Shown in pieces: positions 54,754 through 64,000 of a stretch of 64,000 bases of DNA (its first letter is position 1; the number at the start of each line of letters is the position of its first letter). Where the stretch lies: positions 4,209,501-4,273,500 of the forward strand of contig NZ_CP066786.1 in the NCBI RefSeq assembly GCF_016598595.1. Reading direction: 5' to 3'. Source of the DNA: Martelella lutilitoris (lineage in GTDB: Bacteria > Pseudomonadota > Alphaproteobacteria > Rhizobiales > Rhizobiaceae). Under the pieces are notes generated by a model. That model was not told where the DNA came from and did no database searches. It saw only the letters and a list, made by a program, of their open reading frames with translations. A program made the position numbers and the translations under genes.

Positions 54754-57210
<2,457 letters not shown>

Positions 57211-57561: not shown

Positions 57562-59226
57562 TCACCCCTCAAGCGGCAAATACCCGACGCCTCCACGTTC
57601 CGCCGCCGCCTCTGCAAGCTCATACCCCGCATCCGCATAACGGATGATACCCAGCGACGTATCGTTGGTCAGCGCATGCTCCAGACGTTCGGCCCCTTCC
57701 GGGGTGCCATCGGCGATGATGGTGACGCCAGCGCTGGTCATGTAGCCGGCATAGCCGCCGCCGCCGGAATGGATGACGACGAGATCGGCCATCGAGGCGC
57801 ACATGGTCATGGCGTTGATCAGCGGCCAGTCTGCGATCGCGTCGGAGCCGTCCTTCATGTTCTCCGTCATGATATTCGGATGCGCCATGGCGCCGGCATC
57901 GAGATGATCGCGCGAGAACGCCACTGGCCCCTTCAACTCACCCTTCGCCACCAGATCATTGACCGCGACGGCAAGGCGCGTGCGCTCGCCATGGCCAAGC
58001 CAGGCGATGCGGGCGGGAAGGCCTTCGAAGGGTACGTTTTCGCGCGCCAGCCGGATCCAGTTGGTGACGATGAAATTGTCGGGAAACATTGCGAGCACGA
58101 GATCATCGATGCGGGCGATATCGCTCGCCTCCCCCGAAAGCGCCATCCAGCGGAACGGGCCGATCGCCTCCGAAAAGAGCGGCCTGAGATAGGCTTCGGT
58201 GAAGATTGGAATGTCGAAGGCGTTTTCGACCCCGCCTTCGCGCGCCTGAGTGCGGATCAGATTGCCGTTGTCGAACACCTCCGCGCCGTTTTGCTGGAAC
58301 TTCAGCATGGCGCGGACGTGATCGGTAATCGAGGCACGGCTTGCGGCCATCAGCTGCGCCGAGCCTTCCTCACGCAGACGCTTCACTTCGGCCAGCGACA
58401 TGCCCTTCGGCACATAGCCATAAACGAGATCGTGGGCCGAGGTCTGATCGGTGACGATATCGGGCGTGATGCCGCGCCGCACAATCTCCGGATAGATGTC
58501 GGCGGCATTGCCGACGAGGCCGATGGAGATCGCCTTCTTCGCCGCTACCGCCTCCTCAATCATCGCCAGCGCAGCGTCAAGATCCGGCGCGATCTCGTCG
58601 AGGAAGCCGATCTCGTGGCGTTTGCGCGCCCGTTCGGCATCGATATCGATCACCAGAATGGCCGCCCCCGCCATGCGGCCGGCCAGCGGCTGGGCGCCGC
58701 CCATGCCGCCGAGCCCCGCCGTCAGGATGAAACGGCCGGCCAGCGAACCGTCGAAGCGCTTTTCGGCAATCCGCATGAAGACTTCATAGGTGCCCTGGAT
58801 GACGCCTTGCGAGCCGATATACTGCCACGCGCCGGCCGTCAGCCCGCCCCAGCAGATCAGCCCCTTGCGCTCCAGTTCGTAAAACACCTCCGCCTTCGCC
58901 CACTGGCCGACGATATTGCAGTTCGCCATGATGACGAGCGGCGCCTTTGCATGGGTCTTCAGCAGGCCGACAGGCTTGCCGGACTGGATCACCAGCGTCT
59001 GGTTCTCGTCCATGTCGAGAAGCGCCTTCACGATTATCGCGTGGGACGGCCAGTTGCGCGCGGCCTTGCCGAGCGCGGCATAGACCACGAGATTGTCCGG
59101 GTCCTCGCCGACGGAAAGGACGTTTTCCATCAACCTGAGCAGCGCTTCCTGCCGCCAGCCCTTGGCACGCAGCTCAGGCCCGCCGGGAATGGGGAAATTC
59201 GGATGGCGCGGATTGTCTTTCGGCAT
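57562..59226 (-). CDS. Urocanase-family hydratase, probably thiourocanate hydratase
   Basis: The 554-residue protein is clearly homologous to urocanase (HutU) along its length: LVVYAALGKAARNW, VQSGKPVGLLKTH, YIGSQGVIQGTYE, TAGLGGMGGAQPLA (NAD site), TDQTSAHD, WMALSGEASDI and DHLDAGAM. It diverges at the active site. The urocanase segment with the essential cysteine (RICWVG in Pseudomonas) reads RIAWLG here (Ala408), and the HHGGGVGMGF-type segment reads HSGGGGYAGY. No hutH, hutI or hutG is near. With DUF917, hydantoinase and carbamoylase genes upstream in the same operon, it fits thiourocanate hydratase of ergothioneine breakdown. A true urocanase is the alternative. It is the last gene of the operon. 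Confidence 0.75.
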   Translation of the reverse strand: MPKDNPRHPNFPIPGGPELRAKGWRQEALLRLMENVLSVGEDPDNLVVYAALGKAARNWPSHAIIVKALLDMDENQTLVIQSGKPVGLLKTHAKAPLVIMANCNIVGQWAKAEVFYELERKGLICWGGLTAGAWQYIGSQGVIQGTYEVFMRIAEKRFDGSLAGRFILTAGLGGMGGAQPLAGRMAGAAILVIDIDAERARKRHEIGFLDEIAPDLDAALAMIEEAVAAKKAISIGLVGNAADIYPEIVRRGITPDIVTDQTSAHDLVYGYVPKGMSLAEVKRLREEGSAQLMAASRASITDHVRAMLKFQQNGAEVFDNGNLIRTQAREGGVENAFDIPIFTEAYLRPLFSEAIGPFRWMALSGEASDIARIDDLVLAMFPDNFIVTNWIRLARENVPFEGLPARIAWLGHGERTRLAVAVNDLVAKGELKGPVAFSRDHLDAGAMAHPNIMTENMKDGSDAIADWPLINAMTMCASMADLVVIHSGGGGYAGYMTSAGVTIIADGTPEGAERLEHALTNDTSLGIIRYADAGYELAEAAAERGGVGYLPLEG

Positions 59227-59237
59227 ATCGTCCTCCC

Positions 59238-60326
59238 TCAGGCCAGCGCGTAGTCGGCAATCGAAATGCCGAGCGCCTTTTCGACTACCGGATAGACGGC
59301 CGGATCCCTGACGCTGGACGACAGCGGAATAACCGTCTTCGGTACATGCAGGACAAAGATGGTCATGCCCTCTTGCAACTGACCGACGCTCAAGGGTTCA
59401 CCCTCGGGCGACAGCGTGGTGATGACATCGGGGAAAGTCGCGATCCGGTTGCCGCCGGCATCCTCGACCGCCATGTATTCGTTCATCACGTGCAGCACCG
59501 TCGCCTTGTCGCCGGAACCCACCGTGACCGTGCCGACATCGAAGGCCTCGTTGGTGTAGACCACCGCCTTCTTCGTCACCTTGCCCTCGGTCAGGATTGC
59601 GCCATTGGTGGTTTTCACAATGGCGTCGATGATGGCGGAACCGCCCTTGCCTTCCGCCGCGATGATCGCTTCGCCAAGCGTCAGCGCCATCGAGATACCG
59701 CCAAGTGCGGCATGGGCCTTCACGTAGGATGCCCTGAGCGGATTGCGGCAGGAGGCGATGAAGCCGCCGGACTGGTCGGCGGCGGTTCTGAGAACCGGCG
59801 AGATCTTCGCCGTCGCGCCCTTCACCACCAGTTCGATATAGCGGTTTTCGGCGCGGTTGCCGCCGACGGCCGTCTGGATCATCTGTTCGGGCGAACTCGC
59901 CATGCCGATTGCGCCCATGTCGCCGGTCGGATGGGCGCGGATATCGCCGACGGCATCGACAACCTTGGTGCCGAGCACGGCGGAGGGCAGCCAGCCGTTC
60001 AGCGTCGAGGATTTTCCGTTCTGGCCGACGATCAGGCCGGAAAGCTTTTCGCCGAGCGCGTCCTGCAGCAACTCGGCAGCCTTGATATAGTCGATGCCCT
60101 GCATCTCCCAGGGCGTGGTCGAGGCGGGCGCGCCGATGGCGGCGGCCGTCGCCACCCAGTCATCATCGGAAAGCTCTTCCACCGAGACCAGCTCCGGCTT
60201 GCCGACATTGACGGCGGCATAGCCGAGCATGCGGCCATGATCGGCCCATCCGCCGCCGCCGGCGGCATAAACCGAGCCGCCCTTGACGGCGGGCTCCACA
60301 TCTTTGGTCGTCAGGATACGGCCCAT
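59238..60326 (-). CDS. DUF917 / S-methyl-thiohydantoin desulfurase-family protein
   Basis: The 362-residue protein has the DUF917 layout: a Gly-rich start (SVYAAGGGGWADHGRMLGY), an N-terminal half with HPTGDMGAIGMASSPEQMIQTAVGG, and a C-terminal domain (EYMAVEDAGGNRIATFPDVITTL). Pfam now links the family to S-methyl-thiohydantoin desulfurase. In an operon with a urocanase-like hydratase and hydantoin-opening enzymes it should remove sulfur from a thiohydantoin propionate to give hydantoin-5-propionate and H2S. DUF917 proteins also accompany hydantoinase/oxoprolinase genes, so a general hydantoin role cannot be excluded. It is 1 bp after the M20 gene and 11 bp before the hydratase. Confidence 0.8.
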   Translation of the reverse strand: MGRILTTKDVEPAVKGGSVYAAGGGGWADHGRMLGYAAVNVGKPELVSVEELSDDDWVATAAAIGAPASTTPWEMQGIDYIKAAELLQDALGEKLSGLIVGQNGKSSTLNGWLPSAVLGTKVVDAVGDIRAHPTGDMGAIGMASSPEQMIQTAVGGNRAENRYIELVVKGATAKISPVLRTAADQSGGFIASCRNPLRASYVKAHAALGGISMALTLGEAIIAAEGKGGSAIIDAIVKTTNGAILTEGKVTKKAVVYTNEAFDVGTVTVGSGDKATVLHVMNEYMAVEDAGGNRIATFPDVITTLSPEGEPLSVGQLQEGMTIFVLHVPKTVIPLSSSVRDPAVYPVVEKALGISIADYALA

Positions 60327-60327
60327 C

Positions 60328-61578
60328 TCATTGCTCCATCAGTTGTTTGTCGAGCCGCTTCACCGCTTCGAACAGCACTTCCGCTCCGAGCGCGATATCG
60401 GCGTTTTCCGCCCATTCCTCGGGCGCGTGACTGCGGCCGGAAAGGCAGGGAATGAAAATCATGCCGGCTCTGGCAATGCGCGCCATGAAGGCTGCATCGT
60501 GGCCAGCGCCGGAGGCCATGCGACGATGCGCAGCGCCTGTCGTCTCGCAGGCCGCATCAAGCGTTTCCATCACCAGCGGGTCCATCGGCATGGCGGGATT
60601 GTCGGAAACGAGGCGCGGCGCGGCGATGGCAACGCCATTGTCACGCGCGATGCCTTCGAGGCAGGATTCCAGACCGGTCAGGAATTCACCGAGATCGTCG
60701 CGGTGTTCCGAGCGTATATCGAGCAGCATGCGCACCTTCGACGGCACCACATTGGCGGCGTTCGGCCACATCTCGAATTCGCCGGTGGTGGCGGCGAAAT
60801 GGCCGGGGGTCGCGGCAAGCTCGCCGGCAAGGGTTTCAACTGCAAGCACCACATGCGCCGCCGCAGCAAGTGCGTCGGCGCGGCGGTCCATCGGCGTGGT
60901 GCCGGCGTGATCGGCCCGGCCCTCGACGATGATCTCGACGCGGGTGATGCCGGCGATGGCGGTGACGACGCCGATGTCCAGCTTCTCGCCCTCCAGCACC
61001 GGCCCCTGCTCGATATGCAGTTCGAGAAAGGCACGGATATCGTCACGGGCGATCTGCAATGCTGGTTTACCGCCAACCTTTTCGATGCCCTCGGCCAGCG
61101 TCATGCCCTCCGCCTCGCGGCCGAGCCACTCGTCGGGACGGATACCGGCCATGCCGCGCGAGCCGACGCAGGAAACGCCGAAGATCGAGACTTCCTCGGC
61201 GAGAAAGTCGGTGACTTCGAGATTGTGTTCCAGTTCGATGCCGGCTTCTTTCAGACCGCGCGCCACTTCCAGCGCCACGACAACGCCTGCGACCCCGTCG
61301 AAGCGCCCGCCATCCGGGACCGTATCAGAATGGGAGCCCAGCATGATCGTGCCGGCTTTTGCGTTTCGGCCCGCCCGGCGGCCGATCAGGTTGCCGGCTG
61401 TATCGATGTGGGTTTCGAGGCCTGCGGCCCGGAACTGCTTCTCCAGATAGGCGCGGCCTTGCAGAAACAAATCGGAAAAGGCCCGCCGCGTCCACGGCCG
61501 GCCGGCATCGGTGATCGCGGCCAGCGCGTCGATATCGGCGGCGATGCGCGCCGGAGAAACAGTGAGGTTGCGGCTCAT
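60328..61578 (-). CDS. M20-family N-carbamoyl-L-amino-acid hydrolase
   Basis: The 416-residue dizinc hydrolase belongs to the HyuC/AllC (hydantoinase/carbamoylase) group. Metal ligands are visible: His in GSHSDTVP, Asp in GGRFDGVAGV, Glu pair in FLAEEVSIFG, His in ELHIEQGPVLE and a final His in SGRSHAPEE. The dimerisation domain carries ADHAGTTPMDRRADAL. It removes CO2 and ammonia from N-carbamoyl amino acids; here N-carbamoyl-L-glutamate would be the expected substrate, giving glutamate. Allantoate amidohydrolase is the main alternative. It overlaps the hydantoinase gene by 4 bp. Confidence 0.87.
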   Translation of the reverse strand: MSRNLTVSPARIAADIDALAAITDAGRPWTRRAFSDLFLQGRAYLEKQFRAAGLETHIDTAGNLIGRRAGRNAKAGTIMLGSHSDTVPDGGRFDGVAGVVVALEVARGLKEAGIELEHNLEVTDFLAEEVSIFGVSCVGSRGMAGIRPDEWLGREAEGMTLAEGIEKVGGKPALQIARDDIRAFLELHIEQGPVLEGEKLDIGVVTAIAGITRVEIIVEGRADHAGTTPMDRRADALAAAAHVVLAVETLAGELAATPGHFAATTGEFEMWPNAANVVPSKVRMLLDIRSEHRDDLGEFLTGLESCLEGIARDNGVAIAAPRLVSDNPAMPMDPLVMETLDAACETTGAAHRRMASGAGHDAAFMARIARAGMIFIPCLSGRSHAPEEWAENADIALGAEVLFEAVKRLDKQLMEQ

Positions 61579-62954
61579 CGGATCACCTCCCGAAGCGGCA
61601 GGCTTGCCTCGGGGCGGACGAAAGCGCCCGTTCCGGGTTCGGCGACGGCTTTTCCGTCAAAGACCTGTTTTCCGCGCAGCCATGTTGCCGCCACCCTGTA
61701 GGGCAGGCGCATGCCGTTATAGGGCGACCAGCCGACGACATTATTGCCGCTTTCCGCTGCGTCATAGACGAAGTCACCCGGTTCCAGCACGGCGATGTCG
61801 GCATGCTTGCCGATTTCGAGCGCGCCTTTTACGTGGTCTATGCGAAAATGCCTGGCCGGGTTTGCCGCCATCAGCCGGGCGGCCCAGAAAAGCGGCACGC
61901 CATGCTCGATCGCGCCCTTGATGAAGAGCGGCATCATCACCTCGAGCCCCGGAACGCCCGACGCATTGGCCAGCATATCCGGATTGGTCTTGCGGTCTTC
62001 CGACCAGCTCACGTGATCGGTGGAGACCAGAGTGACATTGCCGCAAGCCACATGCCGCCAGAGTTTTTCGACTTCGGCGCGCGGGCGCACCGGCGGGTTG
62101 ATCTTGGCCTTGCCACCGAGCCGGCGGACGTCGTTTTCCTCGTCCAGCGTCAGATAATGGATGCAGCATTCGACCGTGGCATTGTGGCCCTCAGCGCGAT
62201 AGCCGGCGGCGATCTCGTAGCCGCGGCCAAGCGAGCAATGCACCACATGCGCCGGGCAGCCGGTCTCGGCTCCCGTCTCGTAGATCTGGTGCATGGCAAG
62301 CAGTTCCGTCAGCGGCGGTCGCGACAGGCCGTGGGCGCGGTAATCGGTGATGCCGGAGGCCTTCACCCTCGCGATCGCCGCATTGACGAATTCGTCGTCC
62401 TCATTGTGGACGCCGGCGGCAAGGCCGGTCGGCGCAATCGCGGCAAAACACTCTTCCAGAAGGGCAGCGGGAATGCGGGGGAAACGGGTGGGGTGCGTAC
62501 CGAAGGTCGAGAACTTGAAGGCGGCGACGCCGGCTTCCACCTGCTCTGCAATGCGCGCGGCACCTTCCGTTGGGTCGACCGTGCCGTAAAGGGCGAAATC
62601 GACGCGAGCTTGCGGACTGGCATGCGCGATCTTCTTGCCGACGGCTTCGTCCGAATTCACCACATTGCCCTCGTCATAGGGCATGTCGACGATGGTCGTG
62701 ACGCCGCCGGCAGCAGCCGAGCGCGTCGACCAGATGAAATCCTCCTGATCCTTCTGGCTCAGGGAATGCACCTGCGCATCGATTGCGCCGGGCAGGATCA
62801 GCGCTTCGCCGAGGTCATGACGCTCGCGGGCGCCGGGCGCCTCCCCCTGGCCGATGGCGGCGATCAGCCCGTCGCGGACCGCCACATGGCCGCGCTTGAC
62901 CACCCGATCGGAAAGCACCAGCGTGCCTTTCAGAACGAGATCGAAATCCGACAT
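61575..62954 (-). CDS. Hydantoinase/dihydroorotase-like amidohydrolase
   Basis: The 459-residue cyclic amidohydrolase has an N-terminal half barrel, GAIDAQVHSLSQKDQEDF in place of the metal motif, the bridging Lys147 (GVAAFKFSTFG), His in AGVHNEDDE, HVVHCSLGRG and the late Asp in STDHVSWSEDRK. The usual DxHxH reads Asp59-Ala-Gln61-Val-His63, so the first metal His is replaced by Gln. It should open a hydantoin ring, most likely hydantoin-5-propionate to N-carbamoylglutamate in this operon. Allantoinase or dihydropyrimidinase activity is possible. Confidence 0.82.
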   Translation of the reverse strand: MSDFDLVLKGTLVLSDRVVKRGHVAVRDGLIAAIGQGEAPGARERHDLGEALILPGAIDAQVHSLSQKDQEDFIWSTRSAAAGGVTTIVDMPYDEGNVVNSDEAVGKKIAHASPQARVDFALYGTVDPTEGAARIAEQVEAGVAAFKFSTFGTHPTRFPRIPAALLEECFAAIAPTGLAAGVHNEDDEFVNAAIARVKASGITDYRAHGLSRPPLTELLAMHQIYETGAETGCPAHVVHCSLGRGYEIAAGYRAEGHNATVECCIHYLTLDEENDVRRLGGKAKINPPVRPRAEVEKLWRHVACGNVTLVSTDHVSWSEDRKTNPDMLANASGVPGLEVMMPLFIKGAIEHGVPLFWAARLMAANPARHFRIDHVKGALEIGKHADIAVLEPGDFVYDAAESGNNVVGWSPYNGMRLPYRVAATWLRGKQVFDGKAVAEPGTGAFVRPEASLPLREVIR

Positions 62955-62964
62955 TTGATGTCTC

Positions 62965-63705
62965 CTAGTAGAAGCGGCCCGTGCGCCGCGCGGTTGCCCG
63001 CTCGAACATCACGAAGGCATCGTGAATGAGGAGCGCCAGAACGCCGACCACGAGGCCGCCTTGCAGAACGAAAGCGGTGTTGTTCGACAACAGCCCGGCG
63101 ATGATCACCTCGCCAAGCGTCTTGGCGGCAACCGTCGAGCCGATCGTCGCCGTCGCCAGCGAGATGACGACCGAAAGGCGGATACCGGCGAGAATGACGG
63201 GAAAGGCGAGCGGGAACTCGACCTGCATGAGACGCTGCGTGCCGGTCATGCCGACGCCGCGCGCGGCCTCCGAGACATTGCCCGGCAAATTGGTGAGCCC
63301 CGTCAGCGCGTTCTCGAAGATCGGCAAGAGACCATAGAGAAAGAGCGCAATCAGCGTCGGGATCGGGCCGAAGCCGAACATCGGCACGGCAAGCGCCAGC
63401 ACGGCGACCGGCGGAAAGGTCTGGCCGATATTGGCGATCGAGCGCGACAGAGGCAGGAACTCGACGCCGAACGGCCTTGTGACGATGATGGCAAGGCCGA
63501 CGGAAAAGAGGGTCGCCGCAACCGTCGCCGCGCCGACAATGGCGAGGTGGCTCAGCGTCAGGGAGAGCAGGCTGGTCTGGGTGTAGATCGCCGGCGCGCC
63601 GTTCTGGGTGAACGGCCGGAACACCGGCGCGAAGGCTTCCGGAAAGCTGATGAAGGCGATCAGCAGGACGAGAAGCGCCAGACGGATGAAGACCGAGGCT
63701 CTCAT
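62965..63705 (-). CDS. OpuC/ProW-type ABC transporter permease
   Basis: The 246-residue membrane protein has about six helices and the quaternary-amine permease motifs SIANIGQTFPPVAVLALAV, LYGLLPIFENALTGL and the coupling loop SEAARGVGMTGTQRLMQVEFPLAFP. It is of the glycine betaine/choline family. Ergothioneine is itself a betaine, and its bacterial importer (EgtUV) is of this type, though EgtU fuses permease and binding domain. This protein lacks the binding domain. It overlaps the ATPase gene by 4 bp (ATGA). Confidence 0.88.
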   Translation of the reverse strand: MRASVFIRLALLVLLIAFISFPEAFAPVFRPFTQNGAPAIYTQTSLLSLTLSHLAIVGAATVAATLFSVGLAIIVTRPFGVEFLPLSRSIANIGQTFPPVAVLALAVPMFGFGPIPTLIALFLYGLLPIFENALTGLTNLPGNVSEAARGVGMTGTQRLMQVEFPLAFPVILAGIRLSVVISLATATIGSTVAAKTLGEVIIAGLLSNNTAFVLQGGLVVGVLALLIHDAFVMFERATARRTGRFY

Positions 63706-64000
63706 GATGACGGTCCCGCAGCGCGACGGATCAGGGCATCGCGGGTGACCCGGCCGATGACCTTGTCATCGCGCTCGACCGGCAGCGCGTCACGACCGGA
63801 CCAGAGTGCTGCGGCCAGCGCATCCTTCAGGCTTGCCGAAGCGGGGATCGCCTCGCCCTCGGCCGGGCCTTCCTCGACGAGGTTTTCGCAGGCCTCCAGC
63901 GAGAGCATGCGGAAGGCCTTGTCGCCGGTGCCGAGCAGTTCGTTGACGAAGGCGCTTGCCGGATCGGCGATGATTTCTGCGGCCGGCGCATATTGTTCAA
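63702..64000 (-). CDS. OpuC/ProV-type ABC transporter ATP-binding protein, C-terminal part
   Basis: Only the last 99 codons are in the window; the start lies beyond 64000. The stretch reads as the end of a glycine-betaine-type ATPase: PAAEIIADPASAFVNELLG is the usual junction after the ATPase core, and a CBS-like region (DALPVERDDKVIGRVTRDAL) follows. CBS domains sense ionic strength or nucleotides in OpuA-type ATPases. It is the first gene of the operon seen here. Confidence 0.85.
   Translation of the reverse strand, partial: EQYAPAAEIIADPASAFVNELLGTGDKAFRMLSLEACENLVEEGPAEGEAIPASASLKDALAAALWSGRDALPVERDDKVIGRVTRDALIRRAAGPSS

Follow-up and report, generated by a model that had tools for sequence, protein, structure and literature searches.

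A putative ergothioneine catabolic operon with an embedded importer and a divergent tandem helix-turn-helix LysR-type gene in Martelella lutilitoris

People take up the antioxidant ergothioneine with their food, and trimethylamine is released when ergothionase breaks it down. A five-step bacterial catabolism of this compound was reportedly reconstituted by Beliaeva, Leisinger, and Seebeck in 2021 (ACS Chem Biol). The published pathway comprises ergothionase, thiourocanate hydratase, thiohydantoin desulfurase, hydantoin-5-propionate hydrolase, and carbamoylglutamate hydrolase, and the same five enzyme types are predicted for the locus described here. It begins at the right end of a 64,000-nucleotide stretch of the Martelella lutilitoris genome (C1:4209501-4273500; genome of 4.79 Mb in three contigs), referred to as the window, and extends into a stretch of the same genome (L003) that continues the window, with 21.5 kb lying past position 64000 (L003 position plus 53499 gives the window-equivalent position). 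In Martelella the genes lie in a single operon that includes an OsmF-type importer and has next to it a divergent LysR-type gene whose product carries tandem helix-turn-helix (HTH) domains. The enzyme route is already known, whereas its regulator and its promoter signal may not have been described before; a survey by titles and abstract starts did not turn up the tandem-HTH LysR linkage, the TGGGATAT promoter element, the embedded importer, or the lack of sampled genomes over cut-off for both EgtD and the desulfurase.

Gene organization and enzyme assignments

Nine genes make up the operon, in the order lyase, binding protein, permease, ATPase, permease, ErtD, ErtE, desulfurase, and hydratase, and we judge it very probable (about 0.93) from their sequences that they constitute an ergothioneine catabolic operon with an importer. 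On the minus strand of the window, counted back from the operon's last gene, these are a predicted thiourocanate hydratase of the urocanase family (57562..59226, 554 aa); a thiohydantoin desulfurase of the S-Me-THD family, which we take to be the former DUF917 (59238..60326, 362 aa); ErtE, an N-carbamyl-L-glutamate amidohydrolase of the M20 family (60328..61578, 416 aa); ErtD, a hydantoin-5-propionate amidohydrolase of the cyclic amidohydrolase type (61575..62954, 459 aa); permease 2 of an ATP-binding cassette (ABC) importer (BPD permease, PF00528; 62965..63705, 246 aa); and the 3' part of the importer ATPase (PF00005; 63702..64000), whose whole gene extends to 64640 (L003 10203-11141). Intergenic spacings from the hydratase through permease 2 are 11, 1, -4, and 10 bp by open reading frame (ORF) calls, and the ATPase and permease 2 genes overlap by 4 bp. 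Beyond the window follow permease 1 (L003 11138 to about 12340, its start being taken from the 400-aa orthologue in L006), the OsmF-type binding protein (PF04069; L003 12567-13484), and the lyase (PF00221; L003 13540-15090), whose ATG is at window-equivalent position 68589. A plus-strand gene that appears by eye to be gyrB (no family search was made on it; 54772-57210) converges on the operon's end.

A preliminary description, made from the window sequence alone, had proposed an ergothioneine uptake and degradation operon from six head-to-tail genes. ORF calls reproduce their positions and spacings, with the ATPase gene running out of the window, and family searches bore out all six families that it named. 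The ergothionase that it expected to the right of position 64000, and the betaine-type binding protein to be sought there, both have counterparts just beyond the edge, namely, an ergothionase-like lyase and the OsmF-type protein, and the proposal as a whole is supported at the level of sequence.

Enzymes were assigned with NCBIfam equivalog models and their curated cut-offs, and the four ert models NF058529, NF058530, NF058538, and NF058540 were all matched over cut-off. The hydratase scored 1028 bits against NF058530 (cut-off 930) and 747.5 bits against the S-methyl model (cut-off 880), and the desulfurase scored 605.6 bits against NF058529 (cut-off 440) and 288.5 bits against the S-methyl thiohydantoin model (cut-off 450). 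Both proteins pass the thiourocanate and thiohydantoin models and stay under cut-off with the S-methyl variants. ErtD reached 783.9 bits with NF058538 (cut-off 600) and 373.6 bits with NF058539, a second ErtD type (below its cut-off of 650), and ErtE reached 599.9 bits with NF058540 (cut-off 520). Among the matches listed, no NCBIfam model was over cut-off for the lyase, permease 2, the ATPase, or the regulator; the binding protein passes OsmF. The best NCBIfam matches of permease 2 are choline and ProW permeases, below their cut-offs, and that of the ATPase is proV (278.9 bits, below the cut-off of 326.6).

One feature of ErtD (61575-62954) deserves separate mention. It has Q[VT]H at the position where cyclic amidohydrolases usually carry HxH, and the Q is found in 75 of the 76 relatives, the remaining one being uncovered at that site.

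The family assignments and the conserved promoter element are observed, and we draw each reaction, import, and regulation from relatives and from known pathway chemistry. The OsmF-type betaine ABC importer would bring ergothioneine into the cell, and an ergothionase lacking the 4-methylideneimidazole-5-one (MIO) cofactor would remove trimethylamine to give thiourocanate, which the hydratase would convert to thiohydantoin propionate. The desulfurase would swap sulfur for oxygen, releasing sulfide; ErtD would open hydantoin-5-propionate to N-carbamoylglutamate, and ErtE would yield glutamate, ammonia, and CO2. The divergent tandem-HTH LysR protein probably controls the operon through TGGGATATCCC.

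The operon lyase

The genome encodes two aromatic lyases, HutH and the operon lyase. The best solved match of the latter is the Treponema denticola ergothionase 6s7j (181.7 bits, over 10-488 of 517 residues), with histidine ammonia-lyase at 132.1 bits. Like the T. denticola enzyme (PDB 6s7j and 6s7q), the operon lyase is without the ASG MIO triad of HutH, although the loops differ (SSIGEGDI in T. denticola versus GSIGCADIG here); its segment is one residue shorter than the GSVGASGDLA of the genome's separate HutH, which has ASG. All 83 tblastn rows of more than 45% identity that cover the segment show GS[IM]GCADIG, and a longer stretch containing it occurs in three spellings (66, 9, and 8 rows, some genomes being counted twice via overlapping loci). 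These features point to a putative MIO-less ergothionase, distinguishable from HutH by the lost triad and by its neighbors. A 2026 paper (PMC13405746) describes ergothionase as being without the MIO cofactor and as established with certainty in just a handful of microbes, and a BLAST search reported there met only ammonia lyases.

Spread of the cluster among relatives

A desulfurase relative is encoded on 371 genome-contig stretches; locus counts refer to the best 80 of these, so the sample leans to near relatives, and a gene was counted as present when a single hit spanned over 60% of the query. Elsewhere, the nearest loci come from Martelella radicis and M. lutilitoris, with desulfurases at 98%. 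Near the desulfurase, ErtE was found in 79 of the 80 loci, the hydratase in 78, ErtD in 75, and the lyase in 69, and this recurrence of the five enzymes as a group favors the ergothioneine reading. The ATPase and the LysR gene were each found in 28 (24 of these ATPases, at 33-42% identity, are other ATPases), and the binding protein and both permeases were found in 4. In an even sample of 297 genomes of the family, the desulfurase model matched at E <= 0.001 in 85 and over cut-off in 40, and 5 of 337 genomes in the class sample, the source genome included, had a desulfurase at E <= 1e-60.

Eleven of the 80 loci have no linked lyase. One of them (L081) is truncated where its contig stops and lay outside the search; all 10 genomes that were searched genome-wide hold a lyase elsewhere, at 59-65% identity, or 59-78% when M. 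alba, taken as positive, is included. Such lyases occur in genomes named Martelella, Rhizobium, Sinorhizobium, Shinella, Neorhizobium, and Pararhizobium, which are mostly soil and plant bacteria, and the finding therefore has no bearing on the gut. Three stand-alone lyases (in G634, G635, and G636) were flagged with one internal stop; that in G635 was dismissed, as the match overruns the ORF end by about 6 bp (in L117) and the flagged stop is the end of the gene.

Several clusters depart from the common content. The M. alba cluster (L009) is without ErtD and ErtE; a 61% ErtD lies elsewhere in that genome (L114), beside a different lyase with the MIO segment GACGD. What adjoins it, as read by eye with no family search, is a gene resembling ErtE and an ABC importer of dipeptide type. 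The L039, L042, and L053 clusters have ErtE, the desulfurase, and the hydratase and no ErtD, and no ErtD was found at E <= 1e-50 in their genomes. Next to the L042 cluster are genes for a luciferase-like monooxygenase and for an importer of SBP_bac_3 type. The Marinicella sp. W31 record has a hydratase frame of only 232 aa (L008 11067-11765), either a broken gene or a sequencing error.

Alternative substrates and importer cargo

Several points weigh against reading the nine genes as an ergothioneine operon. The lyase matches 6s7j distantly and passes no NCBIfam cut-off among the matches listed; ErtE scores higher with a generic Zn-dependent hydrolase model, NF009531 (652.6 bits, cut-off 486), than with its own model; NCBIfam assigns the binding protein, over cut-off, to OsmF, which is named for glycine betaine; it resembles the ergothioneine-binding EgtUC weakly (at most 89.3 bits, versus 436 for the best chain, which is of OsmF type); and the importer, found at only 4 of 80 loci, is no constant component of the pathway. 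As to the substrate, we considered an operon for S-methyl-ergothioneine, which would release methanethiol instead of sulfide. The closest solved hydratase, 7ned (799 bits; named only urocanate hydratase in the PDB), is presumably an S-methyl thiourocanate enzyme, and both S-methyl NCBIfam models match, but both do so under cut-off while the thio models are over theirs, and on these scores we rejected the route as very improbable. Still less likely is a service to ergothioneine sulfonate. Agrobacterium belongs to the same family as the source organism. A trimethylamine lyase of Agrobacterium radiobacter is cited together with a sulfonate pathway (Yan 2022, via PMC13405746), but that pathway would be expected to need no thiohydantoin desulfurase, and the desulfurase here is an equivalog match. 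A variant or duplicate histidine/urocanate (hut) pathway has next to no probability. The lyase and hydratase do belong to the HutH and HutU superfamilies, and the hydratase passes the broad hutU cut-off (686.6 bits, cut-off 375), but it prefers the thiourocanate model by 341 bits, whereas the genome's own HutU, taken as a control, shows the reverse order by 294 bits (hutU, 972.3; NF058530, 677.9, below cut-off). The preliminary description had stated that other hut genes are absent, which is correct for the operon locus, where hutH with the MIO triad, hutU, hutI, and hutF/hutG do not occur together, and incorrect for the genome, which has a complete hutF, I, H, G, U set near 0.36 Mb on the same 4.37-Mb contig. 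With the operon at 4.27 Mb, the two are about 0.46 Mb apart if the contig is circular, and a hut set next to the window edge, which the preliminary description had named as a refuting result, was not seen among the ORFs of the 21.5 kb past position 64000 (those farther out than the LysR, DeoR, and next ABC genes were judged by eye). The separate hut set and the missing ASG in the lyase led us to reject the histidine pathway.

A more serious alternative, though an unlikely one, keeps ergothioneine as the substrate of the enzymes and has the embedded importer carry another betaine, having been inserted by chance. The importer's rarity and the OsmF name of its binding protein would fit, as would the spacing at the binding protein gene (55 bp before, about 226 bp after), which is looser than in the rest of the operon. 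On the other side, each of the four Martelella-like loci that bear the importer (L006-L009: M. radicis, M. lutilitoris, the Marinicella sp. W31 record, and M. alba) has it between the lyase gene and the enzyme gene that comes next, the genes around the ATPase overlap by 4 bp, and ergothioneine is itself a betaine. The EgtU importer (PMC9732360; EgtUC chains 9egi and 7txl) shares the betaine-type ABC importer superfamily; EgtUC is a remote relative of the operon's binding protein, which does not fall within the EgtUC type. Other loci have other importers nearby, of SBP_bac_3 type at L032 and L042 and of SBP_bac_8 type at L054. From gene position alone, the cargo of the embedded importer is probably ergothioneine.

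A predicted tandem-HTH LysR-type regulator

Divergent from the operon, on the plus strand, is the LysR-type gene (L003 15225-16406). Its product shares the HTH_1 and LysR substrate domains common to LysR-type regulators and differs from them in a second HTH_1 in front. Taken by itself, the segment of residues 1-96 scores 41 bits with HTH_1 (cut-off 26.6), and two HTH_1 stretches also occur in all four relatives tested (L041, L036, L009, and L007). A homologue search, in which the 8000 candidates with the most shared words were scored, returned 116 homologues at E <= 0.001, 110 of them at E <= 1e-38, and the first HTH region has at least 45 residues in 108 of these 110. A profile of the second HTH detects two copies in only 46 of the 110, and the first domain has therefore diverged. 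Mean pairwise identity is 45% for the first HTH, 25% for the linker, and 53% for the second HTH. Within codons 1-96, third positions account for 8 of 11 substitutions relative to L006 and 8 of 16 relative to L007, which lends weak support to translation of this stretch. When a profile built from 78 of the 110 homologues was compared with solved LysR-type chains, the best stretch in the 22 chains at E <= 1e-10 never began before profile position 90.

The LysR protein was found at E <= 1e-50 in 29 of the 297 family genomes, a search that scored at most six candidates per genome and may have missed some. Of these 29 genomes, 26 have it no more than 10 kb from the desulfurase (25 of them no more than 7 kb), so that it is linked in 26 of the 40 desulfurase genomes of the sample; the distance in the source genome is 9.5 kb, with the importer in between. 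A survey of titles and abstract starts, with most subscription papers outside its scope and hence weak as evidence, gave no regulator of ergothioneine breakdown and no tandem-HTH LysR protein, and passages of PMC5882156 name neither.

A conserved promoter element

We counted TGGGATAT at 75 of the 80 loci, leaving out two at contig edges and three without lyase or ErtD. In 69 of the 75 clusters (27 of 28 with a linked LysR gene and 42 of 47 without), it lies no more than 300 bp from the first ert gene, against a background of 0.015 per 310 bp that is itself raised by these sites. The longer form TNTGGGATATCCC occurs once in the source genome, at genome positions 4278138-4278150, about 50 bp upstream of the lyase ATG. 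Across 12 genomes it gave 12 matches, 10 of them at ert promoters (with the sequence of the ert loci), compared with 2 for a reversed control pattern; of the two matches away from ert promoters, one is in the L042 genome and the other in the L012 genome, and M. alba yielded no match. Because these genomes were chosen for having the cluster, the result speaks to specificity and not to discovery.

We infer that the LysR protein binds the TGGGATAT element. Another regulator could act instead, because most loci without a linked LysR gene retain the element. The element lies just upstream of the stand-alone lyase in only 4 of 10 loci (L092-L095), being absent in 5 (L089-L091, L096, and L097) and in the opposite orientation in 1 (L098), which lowers the odds of the family-wide reading suggested below. 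A second candidate site, the inverted repeat TATGCAA-N8-TTGCATA (L003 15177-15198), is nearer the LysR start; it is also present in L006 and L007 and not in L008 or L009.

Makers, degraders, and implications

The source genome has no match to EgtD (TIGR03438), so no ergothioneine synthesis of its own is seen. EgtD is over cut-off in 21 of the 297 family genomes and 94 of the 337 class genomes, and no genome has both EgtD and the desulfurase over cut-off in the family sample (21 and 40 genomes) or, from the tables, both in the class sample. Were the two independent, zero overlap would have a chance of 0.043 in the family (21 and 40 of 297) and 0.27 in the class without the source genome (4 and 94 of 336). 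Two desulfurase genomes (G088 and G153) have EgtD matches near 20 bits, far under the cut-off of 290.9. The sampled genomes are related to each other, and the split between makers and degraders is therefore a lead, not proof. Trimethylamine monooxygenase is linked to the FMO-like family PF00743. No PF00743 match at E <= 0.001 was found in the genome in a search limited to this flavin monooxygenase route, so no such enzyme is obvious, and the trimethylamine released may escape or be dealt with by a different route.

Within this system, what merits follow-up is the regulator together with the promoter element. We tentatively suggest, at somewhat less than even odds, that across the family a tandem-HTH LysR protein of new architecture reads a nearly pathway-exclusive operator, TGGGATATCCC, which would link the operons with some of the stand-alone ergothionase genes, and that degraders form a guild apart from makers. 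Together, the promoter element and the regulator offer a handle for finding scattered genes of the pathway.

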